This document shows positions 7,048 through 58,782 of a stretch of 62,199 nt of DNA, in pieces. Below the pieces are notes generated by a model, which had not been told where the DNA came from, did no database searches, and worked only from the letters and a program-made list of their open reading frames with translations. The position numbers were made by a program, and so were the translations under genes. The stretch is from IMG/VR virus record IMGVR_UViG_3300047494_000127, positions 1-62,199 of that record; one strand, 5' to 3'. Position 1 is the stretch's first letter. Each line of letters begins with the position of its first letter. Origin of the DNA: a virus.

Positions 7048-7069
7048 TCCCTGCCTCATGCTGAAATTC

Positions 7070-8038
7070 GGTAGTGGGCTACTTTGAAAATGAGACTTAA
7101 CCTAATCGGACTTTCGGGCGGAAAGGACTCCACCCTCCTCGTCGGATGGGCAATCCACGAAAGCGGCTATCCCGTGGAGAGTCTGCGGTTTTGCTTCTGC
7201 GACACAGAGAACGAATACGATGAAGTGTATCGCCAGATAGAAGCTCTGGATGCCTACGTGCGTAGGGCCGGATGCTCGCCAGTGGTTTACCTGCGCGCGA
7301 GCGGAAAATGGGTAGACGAGTTTTGGATGTTCCCGCTTTTCTTGGCCTTGGCGGTTTGGAAAGGGCGGTTCCCTTCGGCCAAAGCGCGGTTTTGCACTCA
7401 GTTCCTAAAAATCAAACCGACTGAGAAATTTATATCAGAGTTGGTTGCCGCCGGTCACGAGATCGTGAGCCATAGCGGCGTTCGGGCATCTGAATCTTTT
7501 GAGCGTTCCACAATGGAGGAATGGGGCAAGGATATGTTTGGCTGCCAAACTCGCCGCCCATTGCTGGCGCTGACTCTTTCCGACGTGTGGGAAGGTCACA
7601 AAAAATACGGACTGCCAATCAACCCCCTTTATCTGGCCGGGTGGAAGCGAGTTGGATGCCGTCTCTGCATCATGTCGAACAAGGCCGATGTTCGCCGCAC
7701 CGTGAAACAGCGCAACTGGGTCATTGCGATCTATCGCACTTGGGAGCTTATCGTGGCAGCTTATCGTCGCAAGCGCGGTGGAATCACTGATTATTCATCG
7801 TGGTTTCACCGGAAAACTGTTCCGCCCTCCCAGCGGTCGAAGATGGTCGAAACAAAAAAGGGGCCGATGCTGGTAGCGACCATTGACGACGTGGCGCGGT
7901 GGTCGGGAACGACCAGGGGCGGCGTCCAAGAGCCGTTTTCATTCATGTTCGACGAGGAAAGCTTCAACACCGACGACGCGCACGCGCCGTGCCAATCAGG
8001 CTTTTGCGAATGAACAAAAGCCAAAGTAGCCCACTACC
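7070..8038 (+). mobile_element. 969-bp inverted-repeat gene cassette
   Basis: Left end GGTAGTGGGCTACTTTG (7070-7086) and its perfect reverse complement at the right end (8022-8038). Flanking 8-bp direct repeats TGAAATTC at 7062-7069 and 8039-8046 are a target duplication. The single gene fills the cassette, with 3 bases before its ATG and 8 after its stop. There is no transposase, so the element must have been moved in trans or by an unknown route. It resembles mobile insertion cassettes described for IS-derived elements. Confidence 0.85.
7090..8013 (+). CDS. PAPS-reductase-like ATP pyrophosphatase
   Basis: A 307-residue protein of the phosphoadenosine-phosphosulfate reductase / N-type ATP-PPase family. 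It has the PP-loop S-G-G-K-D-S near residue 9, an acidic C-D-T-E-N-E-Y segment, C-T-Q-F-L-K, G-V-R-A-S-E-S, and a cysteine cluster G-C-R-L-C near residue 195 that could bind metal or iron-sulfur. Phage members of the family are common but their substrate is mostly unknown; sulfur transfer or DNA modification are possibilities. The ATG at 7090 is used because an upstream TTG lies in the inverted repeat. By eye it is less GC-rich than its neighbours, in line with recent import. Confidence 0.85.
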   Translation: MRLNLIGLSGGKDSTLLVGWAIHESGYPVESLRFCFCDTENEYDEVYRQIEALDAYVRRAGCSPVVYLRASGKWVDEFWMFPLFLALAVWKGRFPSAKARFCTQFLKIKPTEKFISELVAAGHEIVSHSGVRASESFERSTMEEWGKDMFGCQTRRPLLALTLSDVWEGHKKYGLPINPLYLAGWKRVGCRLCIMSNKADVRRTVKQRNWVIAIYRTWELIVAAYRRKRGGITDYSSWFHRKTVPPSQRSKMVETKKGPMLVATIDDVARWSGTTRGGVQEPFSFMFDEESFNTDDAHAPCQSGFCE

Positions 8039-8306
8039 TGAAATTCACCCTCATTGCCCAAGGCAAAAAGGATGGCCGCGTCACGGTCGGGCTTGGGTTG
8101 TCCCGCCGAAATTGCGAAAGGCTCCTCGCCGGAGAGCCGATTGTGGTCAAAGGCGAATCGCTGAACCTCGCGGAGCCGATCGACATTATTCTTTGTGCCG
8201 GGGAAACCGAGCAAACGCTGATGAAGGAGATTCAAACCAAGTGGGGATTCGAGTTGCCCACGGACCCGGACAAAATTCACATCGACCCCAAGTTGAGTGA
8301 CCCGGA

Positions 8307-8483
8307 ATGATCACCACCGAAGAAGAATATCACCGGGCGCTCGCCCGGATCGCGGAGCTGATGGACAGCGAAGAGGGCACGCCAGAGGGCCAAGAGCTGG
8401 AGCGGCTCGCCGTCGCCGTCGAGAAATACGAGCGAGTAACCTACCCGATCCCTGCACCCGATGACCCCGATATTTATGAGTGA
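8307..8483 (+). CDS. HigA-like N-terminal fragment
   Basis: A 58-residue acidic protein (E-E-Y-H-R-A-L-A-R-I-A-E-L-M near the start, then T-P-E-G-Q-E-L-E-R-L). This is the N-terminal segment seen in HigA-type antitoxins, but the DNA-binding helix-turn-helix is missing and no HigB-type toxin is next to it. It may be an independent small protein of that fold. ATGA overlap with the gene before and overlap with the gene after. Confidence 0.6.
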   Translation: MITTEEEYHRALARIAELMDSEEGTPEGQELERLAVAVEKYERVTYPIPAPDDPDIYE

Positions 8484-8700
8484 ATTCAGCCCCTTTCTCG
8501 CGGCCAAGGATTACCTGCGCCGCCTCCGCATCAAGTGCGAGGCCGCGGGGCTGAATGCGGATCGCGTCACCGTCCTGCGCCTCATGCTGGAAACAAAGGA
8601 GGAATGCGGGTTCACCAATGCCCAATGGGTCCGCGTCGCGGAGTTGGTCGATGAATACGCGGACATCCTGAGCGACATCAAAGTGAGCCGGCCACGGTGA
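8476..8700 (+). CDS. Small helical protein
   Basis: A 74-residue charged helical protein starting at 8476, inside the end of the previous frame and overlapping the next start codon (GTGA). No family recognised. Tight overlaps on both sides support that it is translated. Confidence 0.6.
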   Translation: MSEFSPFLAAKDYLRRLRIKCEAAGLNADRVTVLRLMLETKEECGFTNAQWVRVAELVDEYADILSDIKVSRPR

Positions 8701-9050
8701 CTGTGTCGGTGCCGATCGCGCTGCCGAGTGCGCAGCGGATCGAGGAAATCATCCGCGAGGAGGCCAGGGCGGTGGCGGAGCGGCAGCTCGCTTGGCTGAC
8801 GTTTGACCAGGCAGCGGGACACATGGGGATTTCGCCGCGCACTTTCGAACGCAAGAAGAAGGAACTCGGCCTGCCGGTGTCGATCATCGACGGGGTGAAG
8901 CGCGTGGCCCGGGCCGATGTGGATGCGCTGATGCGCGCGCATCTGCACGTGCCGGCGGCGACCGTGATTGCCTTTCCGTCGGTGCTCCAGCGAGACGCGG
9001 AGCGCCGCATTCAGCCAAAGGAGCCAACGGCTCATGCCGGGGCAGCCTAG
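8697..9050 (+). CDS. Helix-turn-helix DNA-binding protein
   Basis: A 117-residue protein with an excisionase/MerR-type helix-turn-helix at about residues 33-75: L-T-F-D-Q-A-A-G-H-M-G-I-S-P-R-T-F-E-R-K, followed by the wing V-K-R-V-A-R-A-D-V-D-A-L. GTG start overlaps the preceding stop. It may control the plus-strand accessory operon. A hairpin lies just after it. Confidence 0.7.
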   Translation: MTVSVPIALPSAQRIEEIIREEARAVAERQLAWLTFDQAAGHMGISPRTFERKKKELGLPVSIIDGVKRVARADVDALMRAHLHVPAATVIAFPSVLQRDAERRIQPKEPTAHAGAA

Positions 9051-10688: not shown

Positions 10689-13600
10689 TTAGAGCCGCGA
10701 GAAAGCGCTGCCGCCCATCGCTGCTAGAGCAGGCGCACGCCGTGGCTGCTTGGCCGGCTGCGGAGGCACCCCGCCGATGAGCTTGAGAAACTTCGCCGCG
10801 TTGTCGGCGTGATCCTGCTGCGCTTGCGCGTAAACCTCTTTTTGGTGCGGGGTCAGGGTGGCCAGCATCTCCGCCTCGCGGTCGGCGTTTCCGGCGAACA
10901 TTTCCGGGGCCACGGTGCCGTTGCTGCGGATGCCCACGGCGTGGCTGATAGCCGCCATGGATTTTCCGCGATTTTGCAGCCATTGGATTTCCGACTTTGC
11001 CGCGGCCATGTCGTCATTGTCCAGGGCGCGGCGCAATTCCGTGTATTCTCCGGCGGTATCTCCCGATGAGCGATCGGCGCGGAAAGGTTGGGCAATGGCG
11101 AACATCTCCGAGCGCGCGGATTGAGCGTTGGCGACCTTCATGCCGACGCTCTGCAATAGCTGCTTCTCGATTGAGCCAGGTTGCCGCGAGTAACGGAAGC
11201 CAAGCGGCTGGCGCGGATCGCGCTCCAGCACGGCCCCCGTGACGAGCGGCACCGGCAGCACTTCGGAGATGGCTGAGCGGGCGCGGTCCGTGTTGTTCAG
11301 GAAGTGTCGGCCAGAATAATCGCGGCCCGTCAGCTCTTCCTTCGACGCACGCGCCAGGGGAGAGAGCTTGTTGCTCACGATGTGGCTGGCCACGTCCACA
11401 GGGTTCTCGTGTTGGGCCAGATACTTCATGGCCGCAAACGAGTATTCCCCGGCGATCTCCAGCGGATCGAACCAGTAACCCAACTTGCCGCCGGGAATCC
11501 ATGCGTCGAGCTTGTGACCGTCCTCCTTGTTCTGGAAGGTGCTCTGTCGGCGGGTCATGAAGTTGAGGATCTGATTGACCGCGAGAAGTCCCACGAGCCC
11601 GGCGGCAAAAATCCGGGCGGCGTTGCCGAGCCGGAATCCTTTGCCGCGCGCGGCGTTGAATGCGGCTTTGGCACCCTGCCCATAGGCGCGGGCCTCGTTT
11701 CGGAACTGGCTCTCTGCCCAATTCGGGGCAAGGAAGACAAGCCGGGCGATGTCCTGAAGCGTCTTGCTCTTGAAGATGCCTTGGCTCTGGAGATTGCCAA
11801 AAAGCTCGTTCATCTCCTTTGCCGTCTGCCGATAGGCTTGTTCCTCGGTGTAAGCCGGGTTCTTCAGGTTGCGCTCCAGATTGCCGAGCGAGCTTTGCAG
11901 CATCGCGGAGCGGGAGAGCTTGGTGAAAATCCAATCGTTCAACTTGGAGACGATCGGGAGATGAAGCTTGGCCTGCTCCAGCAAGTTATCCGAAACCTTG
12001 CCGACGTTCATCCCGTATTGCATCAAGCGCTCGATCTTCGGGCGGTTCGCGCGGGCGTAGGCGGCTTCTTCCTTGGTGATGTCGTGCATCGCCTCGGCGC
12101 GGCCAAGATCAGCGTCGCTGTATTCGAGCAGGGCGCGGCCCTTGTGGATGTTCCAGGCGAGATGCGAATTCCGTTTCATCACGGGCCGTCCACCGCCCGC
12201 CGCGGCCATCTTGAAGAGCATCCGGCCAATGTGGAAGGTATCGACCGCGAGGCTGGCGTGCTTCACGAACGCTGCTGCCTTGAGCCCCGCGCGCCCCACC
12301 AAAGTCTGGCGCACGGCGGATTCGCCGAAGAGGTTGCGGAACGTGGAAGCGAGATCGTCGTGGATGACCAGCGGCGTGCCGGCGGCGTTGACGACGCTGT
12401 AACCCCTCGGGGTCGTCTGCTCGGTGTCCCCGTTGGCGAGTTTCCGTTGCTGGAACTTGCCGATGATCGGCTTGCCATCGGTCGGTGCCGGGGTGTTGCG
12501 CAACTCGTCAAACATCTCTTTCTGAAACACCAGCCGCTTCCCGGCCTCGATGCGATGTGCGTCGAGGTCCGCGAGGTCGGTGGAGATTGGCGGATAACCG
12601 GCCTCGATGGCGTCGGCCAGCGTCTCAAAAGAACGGCCCTTGGCGAAGTAGCGCGGGTTGCTCCCTTTGCCGCTCCCCATGCTGAAGAGCGGGTTGGGGA
12701 GGGCTTCCTTCACCGCGTCCGGGGCTTCGAGTTTGCGGGTGACGTAGTTTTCCACCTCGCCCACGTCGATGTTATGGGCCTTCAGCTCCGCCATGCTGTC
12801 CTTCATGAGCTGGTCGTGATTGGCGCGCGCGGCGTTCAACTTCGAGAATTCGGCAATGGCGCGGTCGATAACCGGCTCGAATTTCTTGGCGAGCTTGGGG
12901 TCATTGCTTGCCGCGATCTGTGCCTTGAACTGGACGAGCTTCTTGGGGTCGCCACCGGCCTCGATGACGAACGGCATCGCCGCGCGGTCGGCGGCGTCGG
13001 GAAGGTCGAGTTTGATCGAATTCCCGGCCTGCTGCCCGTGATAGTTGGCGCGATTGGAAACGGCGTCGGTTTTGTAGGCGACCTTTTCTTTTGTGCCGCG
13101 CAACTTCAGTTCATCCTTTGCCCCTTCGATGGCGTCGGCTGCTGCATCGTAAGCGGCACGCATGGGGCTGGCTCCGTGCAGACGAAGGTTATTCCCTGCG
13201 TCACCCAAATCATCTTTCCCCGGATTGAACCGCACTGCGAGGTAGGCTTCTCCACCGCGCGTTACACCCCATGCACGCTCCCGTGGTTTGGCCAAGCTCC
13301 AGTCCAAGGCTCCCAGTTGCACCTTTCCTTCCCGGTGCAGTCCCATGAGTATCCCTTTGCCCTTCGCAAATCCCGTGGCAGTCGGCGGAAGACCAGCGCC
13401 CTCCATGAGGTCGGAAATCGTCACCCAAGGATGTTGCGTCTCCTGCTCTAGCCGCGCTGCGACTTCCCTCAACTTGGGCTCCATCTCCACCTTCCCCGGT
13501 CCAGTCGTCCGGCGATCGTTCATATCCCGAAAAACGTAACCTGCCTCGGTGCTGTAGATAGGATTGTGGGCATGGGCAGACGGAGACGTGGCCGATGGAT

Positions 13601-16600
13601 TCCTGCGGGCAGCGGCAATTCGCTCCCGCAGCCAATCATCCCCCCACATCCGTCCCTCCTCAATCGTGCTTTCCGGAACCCCATATTTCCGCGCCTCGGC
13701 TTCGAGCTTCGAGCCCTTTTCTTCCACCGGCTGCGATGAACGGCTTTCGACCTTCTCCGCCGCGCGGTCCGTCGCCGTTTTCTCCATCGCGGCACGAACC
13801 TTCGCCATCAGCCACCCACTACCCATTTCATTCCACCCACGGGAGATTTCTTCTTGGCTCACGCCATATTTCTTGGCGAGGGCGTTGATTTCCGACATCC
13901 GCGTAGTGGAGTCCAAAAGCTCGCGGTCGCGGTTCAATTCGTTGTTCGGATTTGCCCCGCTGAGCCGCTGCCGCTCCTGCTCCTCCGCCGGGCGCAGCTC
14001 CCGCTTGCTGGCGATGAGATTGAGCGCACGAAGGCGCTTCGCGTCGGCAGGATTGGCCCCGCCGAGTTGCTGCGGCGGTTTCTGGATGGGAGTGCCAATG
14101 AACGAATCCCGCGCCTCCGCCGTCCTGAAGTGGAAGCCCGGAATTGCGCCAGCCCCGCGGAAGCTCGAGTAATTCCCGTCGAGGGCCTTTGCCTTGGCAT
14201 TCGCGGCTGCATACTCGGTGGAGTTGAGTCGCCGCATGATCTTGGCGACGTAGATGGGCGCGCCCGTCTTGGTATGTTTGAAATCGGCGGGTGAAAAATC
14301 GTTGTCCCTGGTGGGCGTGGGGACGGTCGAGAGTGCGGCTTGCGGCTTTGGCGTCTCCACGGCTTGCCGGACAGACGCAAACCCTTGCTTCACTTGCTCC
14401 GGAGCCAGCGGGGTTTCTGTGGCGGGTGTGGCTTTCTCCGGGCGGTCCGGCACGCTGAGATGCTTCAGCCGGGAGAAAAGCTCCTTGATGTCCGCCGCGT
14501 CTGTGAGATCACGCGAAACAGTTTCACCGGGCGTGTTCGCTGAGTCTTTGTCGAGGACAACCACGCGCGTTGCGGCTCCCGTGCCCGCGCGCTCAAAGGT
14601 CGAAGTGGGCAGCTTGATCTCGGCGCGTTGGGAAAAACCCTTCGCCGCGTCGCTATCCATCCACGCGTTAAACCGGCTCTCCATGCTACTCCCCATTGGG
14701 ATGAGGGCGACGAGACGGCCACCGTCGCGGAGATGTTGCGCCGCTTTGGCGACGTGCTCCATGGCCGTTTTTCCCGCAGTGCCGAATGGCGGGTTCATCA
14801 CCACGGCATCAAACTTATTGATCGTGTTGTAGTCCTCGAAGCGCTGTTGATGGATCTCCGTGTCGGTGGCGTTGAGGGCGAGACGGCCCGCAAGTTCGTT
14901 GCTCGGCTCCACAGCGTGGCGGTTCGTCGAGTCCGGAAAGAATCGGGCAATCGCGCCGTGGCCCGCGCTCGGCTCCAGCACCTTTTCACCGGGGCGGATG
15001 CCGGCCCATTCCACCATCTTGTAAGCCAGCGGCTCCGGTGTGGCGAAGTAATCGACTCCCTCCGACGACTTATTGCGGCTCGTCTTCTTCTGATTGGTGT
15101 AATAAAGGGCCACCGCGTTGTCATACGGATCGCCGTGTTCGCGTGCGCGATCGAGCGCTTTGCCGCCCGTGCCTTGTGTCTGGCTCGGGGCCATGGCCGT
15201 GGCATCGTTGTAACCATTGGCGAAAGACTGGAGGAGGGAGCGAGCCCGCTCGCCCATGGCGAGGTTTTCCGCGGTGCTCGCCCGCTGCGCGATCGTCTGC
15301 GCGAACGTCCACCGCTCGAAGTTGGTCCCGGTCGTGAGATATTCAAACACCGCGTTGCTCTTCACTCCGAAGCGGTAGGGCCGTCCTTCGCATTGGATGG
15401 CGTCTGTGGGTCGCCCTGGAATTCCAAGATCAATGAGGGCGCGCTGGTGCTTCCCATCGCGGTCATGCAGGGAGATGCCCTCCTTGCCGCTGGCGCGCTG
15501 GACGAGAATGACGTTCATCTTGCCGCCGCTGGTGTTGAACTGGTCCACGACCGCGCGCCGCTTGGCTGCTGGCACGTCACCATTGAAAATGCCGATCTCC
15601 GGAAAAGCCTTCTGCAAGGTCGCGAGCGGGGATTGGAGTCCGTCGAGCGCAGAAAGGAACTGATCGTAGTCCGGCACTGCGGAGCGCAACTCATCGTAAG
15701 CGTCACCAAGCCGCACGCTCTGGTATTTGCCCGTCTTGTCCATGTAGGATGCCACCGCATTTTCATCCATGCCGATCGGGCGAAGGGGATTGTCGGAGCC
15801 GCCTTTCTTGTAATCGTGGAACACGACCACCTTGCGTCCCATGTCGAGGTGTTGCTGAATGCGATCAACGGCTTCCTCCGCCTTGATCGCTTCGAGCAGG
15901 TAGCGCCGTTGCAGATAGTCCCCGATGCCGATGAATTTTTTCAGCGGGGACAGGCGCGGATTGGTGTCGAGGGCCTTCATCACTTCGTCCACCTTGTTGC
16001 CAATGGAGTTTTCCGTGAGAACGAAATCCCGGCTGTAATCGTGTGGCACGTCGAGGGCGCGCCCTGACATCGCGCCGTCCTTCATCAACTTCTCGGCAAA
16101 CCGTCGCTCCAAGATGCCGGTGGCCGTGGCATTCTCCGGCTGGGTGAGCTTGTTGTTGCGCATCCGGTAGCCGAAATTTTCGATAAAGAAGCGGTCCCGT
16201 GCCGAAGGGGTATTGTAACCGCGGTTCTGCGGCTCGGGGCCATGGTCGAAGAGATAGCCCTCCGCGTAGTCGAGGCTCTTGTGATAGGCAAAAGGCGTGG
16301 CGGAAAGCAGGATTGCCTTGGGGCGTCCTGCCTCGCCCATCGCAGAAGCGCGCGCTTTCAACTCGCGCTCACGCTCGCGAATCTGGCCGCGAAGGCCGTC
16401 GATGACACCGCGGGTGGCAAGGCTTGGGTCCTTGAGCCGCGAGAGCTTTTTCAACTTGGCGGAAACTTCCGGGAGTTCCATCTCGGCCCGCTTGTAGATA
16501 CCATTCGGATGCCACGTGAGCGCGCGGAAGGCGTCGAGTGCGTTGGTGCCGTCGCCGTCCTTTGCCTGGGAGAGATAGTGCGCCTCGTCGGCCACGACCG

Positions 16601-19600
16601 CGCCCCACGGGCGCTTTGCCAGTGCGTTGTTCTGGCCAAAGTTCGCGTATGTCGTGACCACGATGCGATTGCCTTCCCCGGCATCGGTGATGCTTTGGAG
16701 TTGGACGGAATCTTTGACGCCAAAGTAGCCCCTTGCGGCAGCAAGCCAGTCGTTGGCGATCTTATCAAACGGGACCACAACAAGAACGTGCTTCTCGCCC
16801 TTCTCCAGCATCCGATGGACCGCGCCGAGTCCGCTGAAGGTCTTGCCAGTGCCGGTGCCGTTGGTGAGCAGCACACCCGGCTTTTTCGCGTCGTTCAGCC
16901 GTCGCTCGATGAATGCAACGTCGCCAGCTTGTTCCGGGCTGAGTGCGGGATGATACCCGCTGGGAGTCGTTACGCTGCCTTCGCCAGCTCCGCCGCTTCC
17001 TTCCAGCGTGCCAACGTCGCTGGGGACGACAAGGCTTGAATCAGCATCGCCTTCTGCGGGTCGGTCAGCTTCCACTCCAGTTGCATCAGGTCCGCCGCTT
17101 CCTCCGGGTCGTTCACTTCCGGCAGGGCGTTGCGCATGCTCGGATGCTGGCTCACGAATTGATTGATCGCTGTCCCCTCCGTGAGGAGCGGAAGGCACGT
17201 CGGCAGACAACGGGCCACTATCTCCGGCGTTCCCGCTTTCTCCTCTTCCTCCCTCCACACTTGCCCCATCACGATCAGTTGCTCCGGATTCAGTCGAAAG
17301 GCCACCTTTGCCGCCGGACTCACTAAGTGTTGCGTCCTCGCGATCTGGTTCCACACGGCTGCCGGTAGGTTCGTCATGCTGGGAAGATACCACGCCGCGC
17401 CGCTCATTGAAAAGGGGAGTTTCACCGCCCCCAAACATATCCGCCGTCATGTCGCCCGCGTCACCCTTCAACGGGGCCTTGGCCTTCTCGATCATATCGG
17501 CCTTGGCCTTGGCCTCGTCGCGCTTCTTCTGCGCGGCTTCCATGCGTGTGCGTTGTTCCTCCACACTCTCCGGTTTTTCGAGGGCGAGGGGATTGGCTTG
17601 CGGCTTTTCATCGCCCGGAAAATGGTTTTCCTCCTCCGGAGCGGCGTCGAGCTGCCCATACAGAATCTCTCCCTCCTTTACCTGCTGAATCCCGTATTTC
17701 GAGTGATCCTCCAGCGTGGCGTCGAAGGTGTCCGGGTCAATATCGATGACCTTCATCTTTTCCCCGTTCACCTCGACTACGTCCCCAACCTTCAGCGAGT
17801 CCGCGGGAATGAGTTCCGTGCCGGCATGAGGCTGGCGCGCGTCCTGGTCAAAGGCTTCCTCCTGTTTAGCCGCGGTTGCTTGCTGCTGCCTTTGAGCCGT
17901 GTCTTGCTGGCGCAGGCGGTTGGAGGATTTGGAAATGTCACCGATGGCTTTCCACATTTCCGTCTCCGACGAGCCCGGCGGAAGTAGGTGCGCCTCGACG
18001 AGCGCGGAGGCCATCTCATTAGGCATCAGCCCGTTTGGCTTGTAGATTTGGTTGTGCGTCGGATGCGCGAGGGCAGGGGCATCATCCCATTCGCCTTTGC
18101 TCGCGCGCCACTTCTCGGGGCTCCAGCGCTTTTGCACGGTGCTCTTGCTGGCCAATCCGCCCTGGTTGGCAATTTCCTGAATGAGCGGATTGGACGCAAA
18201 ATGCTCGTCACGCGGCCCGGTGAACTTGAAAGCGCGGGGAGCGGGAGATTTCTCTTCCGGTGTGAGGCTTGCGTAGATCGGAGCCCAATCGCTCGGGCCG
18301 TCCGGCAAATCCGTATCCACGCTGCCCAACATCCGCCAGAGCGCCTTGCTGAAGGGGCGCGCCTTGCCGCCGCTCATCTCGTCGAGGAACTGCGCCATTT
18401 TCTCCGGCGTGTTGATGCCGTCGCGGATCATGAGATGGACGAGCTTGTTGGCCTCGTCCTTCTTCTCAACCGGGAAACCGCGTTGCTCGATCGGCTCCGG
18501 ATTCGCGCCGTGGAGCGCTTTCGGCGACGCGCCAAAGAGACCGTCAAAGGTCTTCTTGAACTGCCGGATGGTGTCGGCCTTCGCCGCCGACTTTAATGCA
18601 CCGGAATTATCTCGTGGAGCGGGACGCCCCGGCGCTCCGCTTCCGCCATCTCTTTCGCCAGTTCCACTCGCGCGTGCGCCAGCATCGCCTCGGTCCGCCC
18701 CTTCAACGTCGAGGGCTCGCTCCCGGACGGCTGCCGGGAGGGCTCCGTGTTTCCAGTTGGCGTCGGTTCCGTTGGTGATTGCATCGACGACACTATGGGC
18801 CTTTTGGCGTGCTTCGTCAACCGACAAGGGCGGCACGGGGGCTTCCTTGAGCGAACCACTTTCGACCGATACAATGTCCACATTTGGATTGCCAGCAAAG
18901 CGTTCGGCAACGGCGGCGAATTCACGCCGAGCACCAGCATGAGATTGCGCCAGCCCTTCCGCGGTGGCCATGCGCTTTTCAACCAGAGCCCGCTGAAGAT
19001 TGCCGCGCATTGCCTCGCCCGGATCACGAAGAATGAAGATCGCTCGCACTTGCCGTCCGCTGTCGAGTGCCTGCTGAATGCGGTCCCCAAGCAATCCCGG
19101 TTGCGCGTGGACGGCATCAAGAACGAAATCCGCATCCTTCACCTTGTTGATAAACGTGCTCTTGCCGCTGCCCGGTCCGCCGATGGTGAATACCACGTCG
19201 CCCTTCGCCGGCTGTTTGAGCAGATAGTCGAACGCGGCTTGCCGGGCGCGATCGGCGGCAGGTTTTAGCTCGTCATAGACCTTCTGCCCCTGCTGGAAGC
19301 TACGGTTCGGGTCGGTGATTGCTTTGGCCTGTTTCATGGCCGGGCTTCCGCCCACAAGGTCATCCGCATTGAGCACAACCAATCCGTCAGGGCGACGCGC
19401 CATCTCGACGACCTTCGCCGGGTTGGTGAGGTCGGCGTCGTATTTGCGCTGCTGTGCCTCGACGACTTTCGCGGAGGCTTTTTCTTGCTCTTCGTTCGCC
19501 CGGTATTTCCCCAGCTTCTCCTCGATGCCCGCGATCAATTCGCGCGTGTCCTTGGAAAGATTGGTCAGTTTTTCCTTCAGCCAGTTCAGGAAGTCCGCGA

Positions 19601-22600
19601 GGAATTTGTAAGTGGCCTCGGTGAGCTTTTCCGGCCCGCGCAAGAGGATGCGTGCCGCTTCAGCGGCCTGCCCAAACTCTCCCAGCTCGTTCCACGTAGA
19701 ACCGTAAACATCCGCCGCACGCTTCATGAGGTCCTCGTCTTCGTGCAACCGGAGTAGCCGGGCCATGTTTTCCGGGCTCTCCTTCGCGTATTGGATCGTG
19801 GCCACGTGGGCGACTTCCTCGGCGACGATGTTCTTCACGAATGCCAATGCCTTTGCGTTCTCCTCGCCCTTCGGTGCGCGCTCCCGCACTGCGGCAATGG
19901 ACTCGGCAAACTTCTCCGGGTTGATTTCGATGCGCCCGGTTTCGAGGTCGGTCGAAATGCCAGCGTTGTCGAGTTCGCCCTCCGCGTCCCTGGCCTTGGT
20001 CACAAATTCCAGTGGGTGCCCCAATGCCTTCAGTTCGTCCTCGTGGAGCTTCAGCGCGGCGTTTGCCAGCTTGAGCGCATGGGCCGCTTCGGGCGAGTGG
20101 GTCTCTTCGGCCTTCGCGGGTGCAGTGGGTTTTACCGCCGGTTCCGCGGGCAATCCGGGGATTTCGGGCACGGGTGCTTTCTCCCCCTTGGGCGGCGTCA
20201 GCTCCGCTTTGCCCTCGATCGGCACGAACCGGCCTTTCTGCATCTTGCCCGGCGTGATCTTGGAATATGGGCCACCACCCTTGAGGATGTTGCCCCCGCG
20301 CACGTCAACGATGGACGCGTGCGCAACTTGCCCTTTGGTGTTGATGGCCTCGACGTGACTCGCGCCTTTCGGCAAAGCGAGCTTCACCGCATCGTCTTCG
20401 TGGAGCGCGGTTGCGAGAGTGCGCGGCTTGGCTGGTTGGGTAGAGGATTCAGACTTGTTTGGCGTTTCGGGCGTGCTAGGCTTGTTTGTCGGCGCGGGGA
20501 ACGCTTCGGGCGTTTGAGTCGGGGACGGGCGCAAGCCCGGTGCATCGGACGCCCCGCCCGGCTTCTTATCAGAAGAAGGTTTCGCCGCCTCTCCCGTGGC
20601 GACCCGCGCCTCATCTGCTGGAGTCCTTTCTTTCTCCGCACTTGGCGCGGGCGGCTGGCCTTGTGCCGGGGATTCGACCGGCGGCGAAGTCTTGGGCGGC
20701 GTCGCTTTCAAGTCGCGCGCCTGCTTCTCCAATTCCTGGGTGCGCGTTTCCTGGCTGGCCACTTCTGGCGTGGCTGTCGGCGGGGTGCCCTCGGCGGGGA
20801 GTTGATCGGCCACGGGCACAGGCGAAGGTCCGCCCCCGGTTTCGCCCGTGCCCATCACGGCCTGAAGCTCTTTGATGCGCCCCTCGATCAACGGGCGCTT
20901 GGTGGTGTCGTCCGCCGGCAGGGCGGCTAATTCTTTCTGACGGGCCGCAAGTTCAATTCGAGGGGTTGAAGAAGGGGATGCGGTCGTGGCAGTCTGCCCC
21001 GATGCGACCGTATCGGCCTGATTTTCCGGGGAAAGCAGTTGGGGGGATTCTGCTTTTGCTCCTTGCTGCGCTGTGGGAATGGCTGGCGTCCCGCTTTGGC
21101 TGGCCGTCGCTGCTTCGGTAGGGGTTCCCAAGGGTGCGCTTTGAGGTTGACCCTGCTGCGTGCTTGGGGTAGGAATCGGATATGAATTGGATTCACTCGA
21201 TCCTGTTGGGTTATCGCGAGATGCGGGAGCGGAACTTCCAGAAGAAGTTTGAGCAGGAGGTTGAGCGGCGGAAGAAGGTCCGGGAGTTTTGGGATTCGCC
21301 GTTTGGTCAGACAGTTGGGCAGGCTGCGGAGCGGGTTGCGAAGGAGCCTCATTCGACTCAGGCGAAATCTTAACGGCGGTAACTCCGTAGGGCTTCCCGC
21401 CCATCGTTGCCTGCTCACCAGTCGAGCGGCGAAGCGCGTTCTCCACGTCCTCGTTTGATGGATTTTGTGGAATATTGCCGGAGGCGCGTTGTTTGATGAG
21501 TTCCGATTTAAAGGCGTTTGCGGTTTCGATTTCATCCTTCGTCATCGGAACGCCCATACGTTCCTTCACAACAGCGCTCGCGATGTCATTTGGGGAAAGC
21601 TTACCGATTTCAATCCCGTGGCCGGCCACGAACGCCCCGACAAGCGCCGCCTGCGCAGCGCCCGGCAAGGTCTGCCCCTCGTCACTCAGCCCGAGCGCAT
21701 GCGCACCCTGTTTGATGATCGTGTCGATGGCGACATTTGCGGCTGCCGCGCCGCCGACTTTGGCCGCGATGGCCTTGGCGATCGTGCCAGTGCTTGCCCC
21801 GCTGGCCGCACGAATCGCGGCGTCACCGGCAAGGTTCGCTACCGTCATCGGAACGCCCGACCCGAAGGCGATCAAATTGCCTGCGGCGTCGTAGTAGGGA
21901 TGCGCGTCGGCGGCATCGGTGAAGCTTTTGATGGTGTCGCTGTATTCGCCGAGTTTGCGCAAAGTCTTGTCGGCTCCGAACGATGCAAGCCCGCCAGTGA
22001 TGAGGCCACCGATGGCCGCGCCCGCGGGGACAGTGGCCCAATCCAGCGGACCGCCAAAAGCACCGATGGCCGCACCGGCTTCCGCGCCTGGTCCAGCCCC
22101 GGCAAGAAATGCCGCGCCCTTGCCTGCACCATACCCAAGGGCTTTGAGCTTCGATGCGACGGAATCGTTTGCCAGAAGCTTCTGCTGCGCCGCAATGGCG
22201 TCCTGTGCGGCCTGCGCCTTGGGTAGCAAGGTGGTGAGCTTGTCTTGGTCAATTGCACCGTCCTTGAACGCGGCAAGGAGACCGTCCTGAAGTCGGTTTG
22301 GGTCGAACGCAATACCGCCCGCGGGGTCAACGCGGTAGGGTGCTTCTGTCGGGGCGAACGGAGTTGCCGCTGCCGTCTGGCTCTGGCCACCGTCAAGAGC
22401 CGTCGCTGGCGCGGCGGGTTGCTGTGGCGCGTTTGCGGCCGTAATCCGATTCTGCGCCGCCGTGGCCCGCTGCTGCGCGTCCACCATGGCGTCAATCGCG
22501 GCGTGCCCTTGGGCCTTTGCGGCGTCAATGTTGGCGCGATACTGCTGCGCCGCCGGGGTGAGGTCATCATTGAAAAGCCCCGCCTTCGCGTTGGCCTGCG

Positions 22601-23213
22601 GCTGGTTGTAGTAGGATTGAAACCGGCTATCGAGCGCTGCGTGCGCGGTGGCAGCGTCCCCGGAAGCGAGAGCGTTTTCGAGGGTCGGGCTTCGGCCTTG
22701 GTCGCGATCGAGGATGCTGGCAATCTGCCCAAACTGCCGTTGCGCATTTTGATAGTCCGCATTGGCCGTGACGGCTGCGTGCTGGTCGAGTGTGAGCTTG
22801 TCGCCCTGCTGCTGTGCGGCCTGGGCAACGGCGGCGTCGCGCTGCTGTTGGAGATCATTCGCCGTGCCGGTTGTGGCCGGCTGGGGAGGCGCGCCGAGCG
22901 TAATTCGCGGCGTGGGGTTGGCGGCTCCGAGCGAATCCCACGTGGAGCTGCTGCCCTTGGTTTGCGGAATCGTGGGCAAACCGGGTAATGCGGGCACACC
23001 TTGCGCGGCAAACTCCGCCCCGCTCATCTTCTGCTGCGCCTGGTCTTGCTGATCCGTGTTGAGCTGCTGGCGCTGGACGGCGATCGAGTCGGCGATTTGC
23101 CGGGCATCAGTCTGCTTCGGGTCCTCCTGCGGCGCGGGAGGAGTGGGCTGAACGGGATCGGGAGCAGGCGCACCCCAATCCAAGGTTGTGGCGCTGTCGA
23201 GGGCGGAAGGCAT
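10689..23213 (-). CDS. Giant polyvalent virion protein (kinase-helicase-methyltransferase)
   Basis: A 4174-residue protein, one fifth of the genome. In order: Gln/Ala-rich N-terminus; a Gly/Ala-rich hydrophobic stretch at about 360-540; Pro/Thr/Ser-rich linker to about 1000; a helical region with E-E-V-A-H near 1130 (HExxH-like, first His replaced); a zeta-toxin-like kinase with G-G-P-G-S-G-K-S-T near 1345; an SF2 helicase with G-T-G-T-G-K-T near 2120, D-E-A-H near 2208 and Q-C-E-G-R-P-Y-R near 2606; an adenine methyltransferase with E-P-S-A-G-H-G near 2750 and N-P-P-F near 2805; and a helical C-terminal third with one hydrophobic helix near 3870. The helicase-methyltransferase pair resembles the P1 DarB antirestriction protein. 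It is probably packed in the head and injected to protect incoming DNA. Leader copy C lies next to the ATG. Confidence 0.88.
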   Translation of the reverse strand: MPSALDSATTLDWGAPAPDPVQPTPPAPQEDPKQTDARQIADSIAVQRQQLNTDQQDQAQQKMSGAEFAAQGVPALPGLPTIPQTKGSSSTWDSLGAANPTPRITLGAPPQPATTGTANDLQQQRDAAVAQAAQQQGDKLTLDQHAAVTANADYQNAQRQFGQIASILDRDQGRSPTLENALASGDAATAHAALDSRFQSYYNQPQANAKAGLFNDDLTPAAQQYRANIDAAKAQGHAAIDAMVDAQQRATAAQNRITAANAPQQPAAPATALDGGQSQTAAATPFAPTEAPYRVDPAGGIAFDPNRLQDGLLAAFKDGAIDQDKLTTLLPKAQAAQDAIAAQQKLLANDSVASKLKALGYGAGKGAAFLAGAGPGAEAGAAIGAFGGPLDWATVPAGAAIGGLITGGLASFGADKTLRKLGEYSDTIKSFTDAADAHPYYDAAGNLIAFGSGVPMTVANLAGDAAIRAASGASTGTIAKAIAAKVGGAAAANVAIDTIIKQGAHALGLSDEGQTLPGAAQAALVGAFVAGHGIEIGKLSPNDIASAVVKERMGVPMTKDEIETANAFKSELIKQRASGNIPQNPSNEDVENALRRSTGEQATMGGKPYGVTAVKISPESNEAPSQPAPQPAQLSDQTANPKTPGPSSAAQPPAQTSSGSSAPASRDNPTGSSESNSYPIPTPSTQQGQPQSAPLGTPTEAATASQSGTPAIPTAQQGAKAESPQLLSPENQADTVASGQTATTASPSSTPRIELAARQKELAALPADDTTKRPLIEGRIKELQAVMGTGETGGGPSPVPVADQLPAEGTPPTATPEVASQETRTQELEKQARDLKATPPKTSPPVESPAQGQPPAPSAEKERTPADEARVATGEAAKPSSDKKPGGASDAPGLRPSPTQTPEAFPAPTNKPSTPETPNKSESSTQPAKPRTLATALHEDDAVKLALPKGASHVEAINTKGQVAHASIVDVRGGNILKGGGPYSKITPGKMQKGRFVPIEGKAELTPPKGEKAPVPEIPGLPAEPAVKPTAPAKAEETHSPEAAHALKLANAALKLHEDELKALGHPLEFVTKARDAEGELDNAGISTDLETGRIEINPEKFAESIAAVRERAPKGEENAKALAFVKNIVAEEVAHVATIQYAKESPENMARLLRLHEDEDLMKRAADVYGSTWNELGEFGQAAEAARILLRGPEKLTEATYKFLADFLNWLKEKLTNLSKDTRELIAGIEEKLGKYRANEEQEKASAKVVEAQQRKYDADLTNPAKVVEMARRPDGLVVLNADDLVGGSPAMKQAKAITDPNRSFQQGQKVYDELKPAADRARQAAFDYLLKQPAKGDVVFTIGGPGSGKSTFINKVKDADFVLDAVHAQPGLLGDRIQQALDSGRQVRAIFILRDPGEAMRGNLQRALVEKRMATAEGLAQSHAGARREFAAVAERFAGNPNVDIVSVESGSLKEAPVPPLSVDEARQKAHSVVDAITNGTDANWKHGALPAAVRERALDVEGADRGDAGARASGTGERDGGSGAPGRPAPRDNSGALKSAAKADTIRQFKKTFDGLFGASPKALHGANPEPIEQRGFPVEKKDEANKLVHLMIRDGINTPEKMAQFLDEMSGGKARPFSKALWRMLGSVDTDLPDGPSDWAPIYASLTPEEKSPAPRAFKFTGPRDEHFASNPLIQEIANQGGLASKSTVQKRWSPEKWRASKGEWDDAPALAHPTHNQIYKPNGLMPNEMASALVEAHLLPPGSSETEMWKAIGDISKSSNRLRQQDTAQRQQQATAAKQEEAFDQDARQPHAGTELIPADSLKVGDVVEVNGEKMKVIDIDPDTFDATLEDHSKYGIQQVKEGEILYGQLDAAPEEENHFPGDEKPQANPLALEKPESVEEQRTRMEAAQKKRDEAKAKADMIEKAKAPLKGDAGDMTADMFGGGETPLFNERRGVVSSQHDEPTGSRVEPDREDATLSESGGKGGLSTESGATDRDGASVEGGRGESGNAGDSGPLSADVPSAPHGGDSDQSIREPASEHAQRPAGSERPGGSGGPDATGVEADRPAEGDADSSLVVPSDVGTLEGSGGAGEGSVTTPSGYHPALSPEQAGDVAFIERRLNDAKKPGVLLTNGTGTGKTFSGLGAVHRMLEKGEKHVLVVVPFDKIANDWLAAARGYFGVKDSVQLQSITDAGEGNRIVVTTYANFGQNNALAKRPWGAVVADEAHYLSQAKDGDGTNALDAFRALTWHPNGIYKRAEMELPEVSAKLKKLSRLKDPSLATRGVIDGLRGQIRERERELKARASAMGEAGRPKAILLSATPFAYHKSLDYAEGYLFDHGPEPQNRGYNTPSARDRFFIENFGYRMRNNKLTQPENATATGILERRFAEKLMKDGAMSGRALDVPHDYSRDFVLTENSIGNKVDEVMKALDTNPRLSPLKKFIGIGDYLQRRYLLEAIKAEEAVDRIQQHLDMGRKVVVFHDYKKGGSDNPLRPIGMDENAVASYMDKTGKYQSVRLGDAYDELRSAVPDYDQFLSALDGLQSPLATLQKAFPEIGIFNGDVPAAKRRAVVDQFNTSGGKMNVILVQRASGKEGISLHDRDGKHQRALIDLGIPGRPTDAIQCEGRPYRFGVKSNAVFEYLTTGTNFERWTFAQTIAQRASTAENLAMGERARSLLQSFANGYNDATAMAPSQTQGTGGKALDRAREHGDPYDNAVALYYTNQKKTSRNKSSEGVDYFATPEPLAYKMVEWAGIRPGEKVLEPSAGHGAIARFFPDSTNRHAVEPSNELAGRLALNATDTEIHQQRFEDYNTINKFDAVVMNPPFGTAGKTAMEHVAKAAQHLRDGGRLVALIPMGSSMESRFNAWMDSDAAKGFSQRAEIKLPTSTFERAGTGAATRVVVLDKDSANTPGETVSRDLTDAADIKELFSRLKHLSVPDRPEKATPATETPLAPEQVKQGFASVRQAVETPKPQAALSTVPTPTRDNDFSPADFKHTKTGAPIYVAKIMRRLNSTEYAAANAKAKALDGNYSSFRGAGAIPGFHFRTAEARDSFIGTPIQKPPQQLGGANPADAKRLRALNLIASKRELRPAEEQERQRLSGANPNNELNRDRELLDSTTRMSEINALAKKYGVSQEEISRGWNEMGSGWLMAKVRAAMEKTATDRAAEKVESRSSQPVEEKGSKLEAEARKYGVPESTIEEGRMWGDDWLRERIAAARRNPSATSPSAHAHNPIYSTEAGYVFRDMNDRRTTGPGKVEMEPKLREVAARLEQETQHPWVTISDLMEGAGLPPTATGFAKGKGILMGLHREGKVQLGALDWSLAKPRERAWGVTRGGEAYLAVRFNPGKDDLGDAGNNLRLHGASPMRAAYDAAADAIEGAKDELKLRGTKEKVAYKTDAVSNRANYHGQQAGNSIKLDLPDAADRAAMPFVIEAGGDPKKLVQFKAQIAASNDPKLAKKFEPVIDRAIAEFSKLNAARANHDQLMKDSMAELKAHNIDVGEVENYVTRKLEAPDAVKEALPNPLFSMGSGKGSNPRYFAKGRSFETLADAIEAGYPPISTDLADLDAHRIEAGKRLVFQKEMFDELRNTPAPTDGKPIIGKFQQRKLANGDTEQTTPRGYSVVNAAGTPLVIHDDLASTFRNLFGESAVRQTLVGRAGLKAAAFVKHASLAVDTFHIGRMLFKMAAAGGGRPVMKRNSHLAWNIHKGRALLEYSDADLGRAEAMHDITKEEAAYARANRPKIERLMQYGMNVGKVSDNLLEQAKLHLPIVSKLNDWIFTKLSRSAMLQSSLGNLERNLKNPAYTEEQAYRQTAKEMNELFGNLQSQGIFKSKTLQDIARLVFLAPNWAESQFRNEARAYGQGAKAAFNAARGKGFRLGNAARIFAAGLVGLLAVNQILNFMTRRQSTFQNKEDGHKLDAWIPGGKLGYWFDPLEIAGEYSFAAMKYLAQHENPVDVASHIVSNKLSPLARASKEELTGRDYSGRHFLNNTDRARSAISEVLPVPLVTGAVLERDPRQPLGFRYSRQPGSIEKQLLQSVGMKVANAQSARSEMFAIAQPFRADRSSGDTAGEYTELRRALDNDDMAAAKSEIQWLQNRGKSMAAISHAVGIRSNGTVAPEMFAGNADREAEMLATLTPHQKEVYAQAQQDHADNAAKFLKLIGGVPPQPAKQPRRAPALAAMGGSAFSRL

Positions 23214-58543: not shown

Positions 58544-58615
58544 GGGGCCGTCGTCCAATGGTAGGATGCGCAACGTTCAACACTGCGTATGAGGGTTCGA
58601 CTCCCTCCGGCTCCT
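58544..58615 (+). tRNA. tRNA-like gene 1, unusual anticodon arm
   Basis: Acceptor GGGGCCG/CGGCTCC (one G-T), D-arm GTCC..GGAT, T-arm GAGGG-TTCGACT-CCCTC. In a 5-7-5 reading the anticodon stem is GCAAC/ACTGC with two A-C mismatches and loop GTTCAAC, giving anticodon TCA (reads UGA). Alternatively a 5-bp stem with a 9-base loop. Discriminator T, no CCA. Confidence 0.6.
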
Positions 58616-58622
58616 CCTCTCT

Positions 58623-58694
58623 ATCCGGGTCGTCTAATGGTAGGACGCAAGGGCCTTTAATCCCTGTATGGCAGTTTGACTCTGCCCCCGGATG
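58623..58694 (+). tRNA. tRNA-like gene 2, unusual anticodon arm
   Basis: Acceptor ATCCGGG/CCCGGAT perfectly paired, D-arm GTCT..GGAC, T-arm GGCAG-TTTGACT-CTGCC. In the same 5-7-5 reading the loop is CCTTTAA (anticodon TTT, but C instead of the invariant T at 33) and the stem has an A-C mismatch. The best helix is AGGG/CCCT with an 8-base loop. Amino-acid identity uncertain. Confidence 0.6.
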
Positions 58695-58702
58695 CTCCTT
58701 TT

Positions 58703-58774
58703 TTGCCCGTGGTGTAACGGTAGCACGCCAGCCCTGTGAAGGCCGGTGTGGCGGTTCGAGTCCGTCCGGGCAAG
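58703..58774 (+). tRNA. tRNA-like gene 3, anticodon GTG (His) or uncertain
   Basis: Acceptor TTGCCCG/CGGGCAA, D-arm GTGT..GCAC, T-arm GGCGG-TTCGAGT-CCGTC. Anticodon stem CAGCC/GGCCG with one A-C mismatch, loop CTGTGAA with T33, anticodon GTG. Lacks the extra G at -1 of His tRNAs and has discriminator G, so charging is doubtful. Confidence 0.65.
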
Positions 58775-58782
58775 CCTTTCAA

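Follow-up and report, generated by a model that had tools for sequence, protein, structure and literature searches.

A Phage-Borne Single-Gene Cassette with the Ends of an IS1-Related Transposon and No Transposase of Its Own

Organization of the Locus

The window, that is, the whole 62,199-nucleotide stretch of viral DNA analysed here (IMG/VR record IMGVR_UViG_3300047494_000127), comes from a phage, with genes for a terminase, a DNA primase/helicase, a DNA methyltransferase and an exonuclease. At positions 7070–8038 it contains an element of 969 bp with perfect 17-bp inverted ends, holding one intact gene and no transposase. The features of the locus are as follows.

7058–7069 (+): first four codons (ATG CTG AAA TTC) of an interrupted 91-codon gene; the joined frame is open
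7062–7069: left copy of the 8-bp target-site duplication TGAAATTC, with identical bases at 8039–8046
7070–7086 (+): left terminal inverted repeat GGTAGTGGGCTACTTTG, read directly from the sequence
7085–7087 (+): TGA closing the frame of the interrupted gene, two bases before the cassette ATG at 7090
7090–8013 (+): passenger gene (ATG 7090, TGA 8011–8013), 307 aa, a PAPS-reductase-like ATP-PPase by profile matches
8010–8021 (+): subterminal motif ATGAACAAAAGC, with an outward ATG overlapping the passenger stop (ATGA)
8022–8038 (−): right terminal inverted repeat, the exact reverse complement of GGTAGTGGGCTACTTTG, from the sequence
8039–8046: right copy of the 8-bp target-site duplication TGAAATTC, read directly
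8047–8310 (+): remainder of the interrupted 91-codon gene, from the joined frame and a relative in another viral contig (L204)

The single open reading frame fills the element, leaving 3 spare bases on its left (7087–7089, AAA) and 8 on its right (8014–8021). The left repeat includes a short palindrome, GTAG-TGGG-CTAC. At up to 3 mismatches the end is matched only twice in the window, by the two repeats themselves, against a shuffle expectation of 0.04, and none of 100 shuffled windows reached two matches. The GC content of the cassette is 54.7% vs. 60.9% for the genome (rank 4 of 632 windows). A transposase profile search of the whole 62-kb record gave no match; as this linear record may not be the complete genome, the phage could still encode one elsewhere. 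The original prediction, made without database searches, had given the ends, the duplication and the 3 and 8 spare bases correctly to the letter, and its reading of a transposon-like cassette that holds a passenger gene but no transposase is supported.

Two further observations concern other parts of the window. Positions 58544–58776 hold three phage tRNA genes, two of them for Lys and His and the third called as tRNA-SeC (anticodon tca); a phage would not usually carry a suppressor or selenocysteine-type tRNA, and the call may be mistaken. On the minus strand, 10689–23213 is open over 4174 codons and seems to encode a phage protein of several domains, in which helicase-like and methyltransferase-like stretches can be made out by eye.

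The Passenger Gene

The passenger product matches PF01507 (6.5e-15, 56 bits vs. a cutoff of 22.5) and phrog_424, phosphoadenosine phosphosulfate reductase (2.2e-41), and its PP-loop, SGGKDS, is intact at residues 9–14. Profile and PP-loop signature show that it belongs to the PAPS-reductase/PP-loop ATPase superfamily; enzymatic activity is untested. Specific equivalog models (cysH, DndC and others) scored far under their cutoffs. Among solved structures, a sequence search found no more than a weak match to MnmA, and single-sequence structure prediction yielded no usable model (pLDDT 35).

The closest viral relative, in contig L203, is 79% identical and is not flanked by these ends; nucleotide similarity between the window and L203 is confined to the gene, with none outside it. 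The two genes differ at 66/43/182 first, second and third codon positions, and since most differences lie in third positions, the passenger is under purifying selection. In the isolate phages P2, 186, S1 and Parlo the family appears as an ordinary phage gene, with about 33% identity at best among the isolate hits listed. No second copy of the window cassette was found among the searched loci.

The Interrupted Gene and the Target Site

When the duplication is collapsed, so that 7058–7069 is joined to 8047–8310, an open frame of 91 codons results, as had been predicted. A minus-strand frame of 149 codons is likewise open across the same join; the open restored frame on its own is therefore weak evidence, and it was rejected as sufficient proof of an insertion. 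The restored gene is plausible, backed solely by the uninterrupted relative in L204, which is 49% identical and has its own ATG. This relative is also all that came of the proposed search for a related phage with the intact gene, which gave no empty site at the nucleotide level. The joined flanks of the complete elements were compared with all collected loci and no convincing uninterrupted copy was found; a 51-bp spanning match at 84% was taken as chance. The frames spanning the insertion joins of the elements give a mixed picture. Neither the neighbouring gene for a 774-aa protein nor the gene at 8697–9047 has confirmed relatives in viral contigs or phage records, so that no close relative of the window phage is available for comparison.

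Distribution of the Ends

The exact 17-bp end GGTAGTGGGCTACTTTG occurs in 61 viral stretches of IMG/VR. Its three other last-base variants occur in only 17 together, which puts the background at about 6 stretches per variant, and controls with the reversed pattern gave next to no matches in 50 viral records. Counting the window's, 15 non-redundant viral elements are flanked by perfect 8-bp duplications, and two more have duplications with one mismatch. The duplicated sequences mostly differ among themselves and follow a palindromic, AT-centred pattern. The check named in the original prediction, a search for other copies with different 8-bp duplications, is thus positive in many viral elements, and the finding that would have refuted it, ends without any other copies, was not obtained. 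A transposition-like event inserted the element.

In bacteria the end was met mainly in records of Acidobacteriota and Verrucomicrobiota, where many of the elements are short and empty and some are full. It is rare there: 3 of 247 genomes have it in the phylum of one carrier (G066), that carrier itself counted. GGTAGTGNNNCAGTTTGAA, a sister type of end, is present in at least 120 viral stretches; of 19 complete elements of this type that were examined, 9 have transposase matches and the rest are mostly decayed.

Several observations on end copies and bacterial elements are recorded here in their own right. Two 41-kb viral contigs, L183 (G001) and L184 (G040), have eight and seven exact end copies, respectively, some in mixed orders and without matching duplications, as if recombined. 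A Verrucomicrobiales MAG (G069, e.g., locus L068) has about 25 exact end copies, most of them less than 150 bp from contig ends; this looks like a high-copy element breaking the assembly and is a likely source of active transposase. Bacterial same-ended elements L064, L073 and L157 carry a gene of a ClpP-like SDH-type serine protease (PF01972 for L064), with a transposase alongside in L073 and L157 and none in L064. Loci L302, L326, L340, L370 and L376, of the sister end type, encode a small conserved protein with, by eye, a GGxxGGxARAxxL..RW pattern, annotated as "histone H1" in Mesorhizobium (L302). Similar small proteins with an SCEGGxGH pattern, again by eye, lie beside both end types (L318 4334–4949 and L183 7393, minus strand) and suggest one cargo family captured by both.

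The Partner Transposon

Longer elements with identical 17-bp ends (L035, L046, L063 and others) encode a transposase of about 281 aa, so the proposed search for a complete element with the same ends was also positive. This transposase matches Pfam PF03400 (DDE_Tnp_IS1) at 1.7e-7, above the cutoff, and NCBIfam NF033558 (IS1) with 54.5 bits, under the cutoff of 100. Its plasmid relatives, 51–53% identical, are mostly annotated as IS1 family transposases and belong to complete elements whose ends are very similar and whose duplications are also 8 bp long. One of these elements, in Mesorhizobium loti, spans 3.4 kb, has perfect ends GGTAGTGGGTCAGTTTGA and the duplication CGCTGGTG, and carries passenger genes; the corresponding element of Acidiphilium is 2.6 kb long. 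In the transposase tree L185, L063, L046 and L035 form a virus-only clade with support of 100/100. In the autonomous viral elements L063 and L035 the repeat downstream of the transposase is adjoined by ATGAACAAAAT, and this motif is matched by ATGAACAAAAGC, which takes the same position at the right end of the window element.

The IS1 family is known for short target duplications of about 8–9 bp, usually 9 bp in classical IS1, whose ends begin with GGT and whose targets are short and AT-rich. The present elements are like the family in their GGT-initial ends and short AT-rich targets; their profile matches agree with it only in part, DDE_Tnp_IS1 being matched above its cutoff and the NCBIfam IS1 model not. 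They differ from classical IS1 in three respects: the transposase is one uninterrupted frame with no frameshifted InsA-InsB' arrangement, inspection of the alignment found no N-terminal CxxC zinc finger, and the duplications are 8 bp throughout. They also differ from the family in the sub-cutoff NCBIfam score and in the passenger genes of most full elements. Because of the single frame and the missing CxxC, the label "IS1-related" is used here and not "an IS1". The families offered by the original prediction as candidates (IS6, IS66, ISL3 and IS1595) failed: an origin of the ends in any of them is unsupported, the transposase of same-ended elements being IS1-related.

Short N-terminal pieces of the transposase persist in contigs G001 and G040, which points to internal deletion as one origin of transposase-less elements. 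As a separate observation, an isolated jumbo phage, Brevundimonas phage vB_BpoS-Gurke, has in locus L304 (172309–178166) an unannotated IS1-like transposase frame that is 29% identical, with one related end nearby.

Other Single-Gene Cassettes

About ten transposase-less single-gene elements were found in phage contigs. Between the same ends they hold the following cargo.

Window, L032, L186: PAPS-reductase-like gene
L033: C5 DNA methyltransferase
L007, L027: phrog_11619 DNA methyltransferase
L019: phrog_12600
L053: phrog_7314
L183: HNH-like gene
L057, L187: unassigned genes

The elements of L007, L183 and L187 are without a clean duplication. In G040 the starts of a phrog_67 DNA methyltransferase gene and a phrog_9298 radical-SAM gene abut the end as well. 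A transposase search detected none in most of the other cassette contigs. The contigs with viral copies and cassettes are assigned to phages because of nearby homologues of RecT, Erf, DnaC-like, portal and terminase proteins. The original prediction had taken a phage cassette made of a single ATP-PPase gene to be, as far as known, undescribed; it turns out to be one of a series, in which L032 and L186 are two further PAPS-reductase-like examples.

The same cargo is present at two unrelated sites in other phages. The methyltransferase cassettes of L007 and L027 are 95.5% identical over 555 bp, and the two contig stretches have no other DNA in common but the ends. Among 80 viral loci examined that have a phrog_11619 methyltransferase, only these two have the ends, which are absent from the other 78. 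Since the right-hand parts of the two cassettes differ, the element ancestral to both may not yet have lost its transposase.

End Architecture and Translation

The frame of the broken gene runs into the cassette as ATG CTG AAA TTC GGT AGT GGG CTA CTT TGA. The 3-base spacer leaves no room for a ribosome-binding site of its own, so coupling probably accounts for translation of the passenger: ribosomes reading the broken gene would stop at the TGA at 7085–7087 and restart at the ATG at 7090. This stop-restart coupling seems likely and remains an inference, expression being untested. At the other end, the predicted in-frame relation held, as past its stop the cassette frame continues in frame into the broken gene. 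The outward ATG of the window element is not in frame with that gene, and a restoration of the gene is therefore not claimed.

Cassette start codons often lie 1–4 bases inside the end, and several stops lie within the end itself. Among 78 unique ends a start codon is found at +3 in 10 and at +1 in 4, with an expectation of about 1 per offset; a few of the ten are related copies. Ends with any nearby start codon (20/78) are no more frequent than random points (21%), and only +3 and +1 stand out. Outward ATGs fall in the stop-carrying frame of the end in 2 of 35 viral ends vs. 12 of 22 bacterial ones (Fisher p 5e-5, with related ends not fully independent). The motif TTCAT is present in 20 of 75 viral ends and in none of 125 bacterial ends.

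Interpretation and Alternatives

The window element appears to be a mobile insertion cassette (MIC) that derives from a phage-resident IS1-like transposon but lacks the transposase; this reading is likely, with mobilisation in trans being inferred. It has those attributes of a MIC that can be read from sequence: two inverted repeats, a passenger without a transposase, a target duplication, and an autonomous IS with the same ends. The ends, the duplication, the intact gene under purifying selection, and the related elements with and without transposase are all shown. In the proposed mechanism a single phage accessory gene lies between both terminal inverted repeats of an IS1-related transposon that resides in phages. 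The cassette, or its full-length parent, would have transposed into the fourth codon of a small phage gene, leaving the 8-bp duplication. The transposase of a full-length relative, in the host or in a co-resident phage, would act on the ends in trans. The probable origin is a passenger-carrying transposon that lost its transposase gene, which for this element is likewise inferred and not shown.

The least remote alternative is a fossil, in which a full transposon with its passenger inserted here, lost the transposase by internal deletion and has been immobile since, the passenger being kept as useful. The transposase remnants in G001 and G040 show that such deletions occur, the window cassette is known in one copy only, and its passenger is under purifying selection. 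Against this, both ends and the duplication are still letter-perfect, and many phage elements are transposase-less and single-gene, several with end-flush starts, a pattern that accidental deletion is unlikely to repeat. We consider the fossil reading unlikely. The repeats and the restored frame could also be put down to chance, or to regulatory hairpins flanking a normal phage gene; the frame is weak evidence alone, given the minus-strand frame across the join, and no close phage relative shows an empty site. However, the 17-mer bounds the 15 viral elements with perfect 8-bp duplications and encloses IS1-related transposases, and only 0.04 end matches are expected in the window. As perfect, mostly different duplications are found at many sites, this reading is rejected and can be regarded as all but excluded. 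No more room is left for the possibility that the element is of a novel kind, mobilised by its own PAPS-reductase-like protein. It is the sole gene of the element, and two further genes of its kind lie between the same ends; however, the ends also enclose unrelated cargo genes, the gene lacks these ends in L203 and is an ordinary phage gene in isolates, and complete relatives encode a DDE transposase.

Beyond the MIC reading, a bolder one is possible. Phages may own a dedicated system of single-gene cassettes, functionally analogous to integrons, in which a virus-adapted IS1-related lineage packages phage accessory genes time and again, many of which encode nucleic-acid-modifying proteins or ATP-PPases. 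The cargoes cited for it are PAPS-reductase-like, DNA methyltransferase, HNH-like and radical SAM genes. The ends might then be shaped for operons, with the start codon set directly against the left end and the stop codon at the right one sharing bases with an outward ATG (ATGA), the end being open in the frames used. This reading rests on the flush starts, the avoidance of outward ATGs in one frame of viral ends, and the restriction of the TTCAT motif to viral ends. If it is true, a gene inserted in a translated operon could be expressed by coupling with little polarity.

Significance

The question of how single accessory genes ("morons") enter phage genomes is an old one, and illegitimate recombination is the usual answer. 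In the elements described here a route to such gain can be seen: their ends are defined, the target is duplicated, a partner transposon exists and the cargo is interchangeable. The cargo often consists of DNA methyltransferase and PAPS-reductase-like genes and could bear on restriction and counter-defence; its function and any benefit to the phage are inferred and not shown. Since the ends form a searchable 17-bp tag, large-scale surveys of cassettes, cargo and empty sites are possible.

Comparison with Known Systems

MICs as such are already known: MIC231 of Bacillus cereus, derived from IS231, and mic-qnrD have been described (PMC3913671). The open-access literature searched (preprints excluded) contained no IS1-type series of phage-borne cassettes with single phage genes, and as far as that literature shows, such a series is new. 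Phage PAPS reductase genes (phrog_424), of the same family as the window cargo, are common phage accessory genes.

The model for the window cassette is MIC231A1, which is mobilised in trans by the IS231A transposase (PMC3913671). Like MIC231 and mic-qnrD, the element has inverted repeats around a passenger, no transposase inside and a target duplication. Its ends are IS1-related, whereas those of MIC231 belong to IS231 and those of mic-qnrD are unassigned. It also resides in a phage and has a phage gene as cargo, as part of a whole series with exchangeable cargo. In contrast to mic-qnrD, for which no autonomous relative with matching ends was found, such a relative exists here; the duplication is 8 bp vs. 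2 bp, and start codons lie 1–4 bases from the end, whereas mic-qnrD has its own promoter and ribosome-binding site. The resemblance to integron cassettes is one of function only: both are compact single-gene units, mostly promoterless and interchangeable at target sites. No attC site or integrase is apparent here, although no dedicated attC search stands behind the former point, and the inverted repeats and target duplications show transposition and not site-specific recombination.
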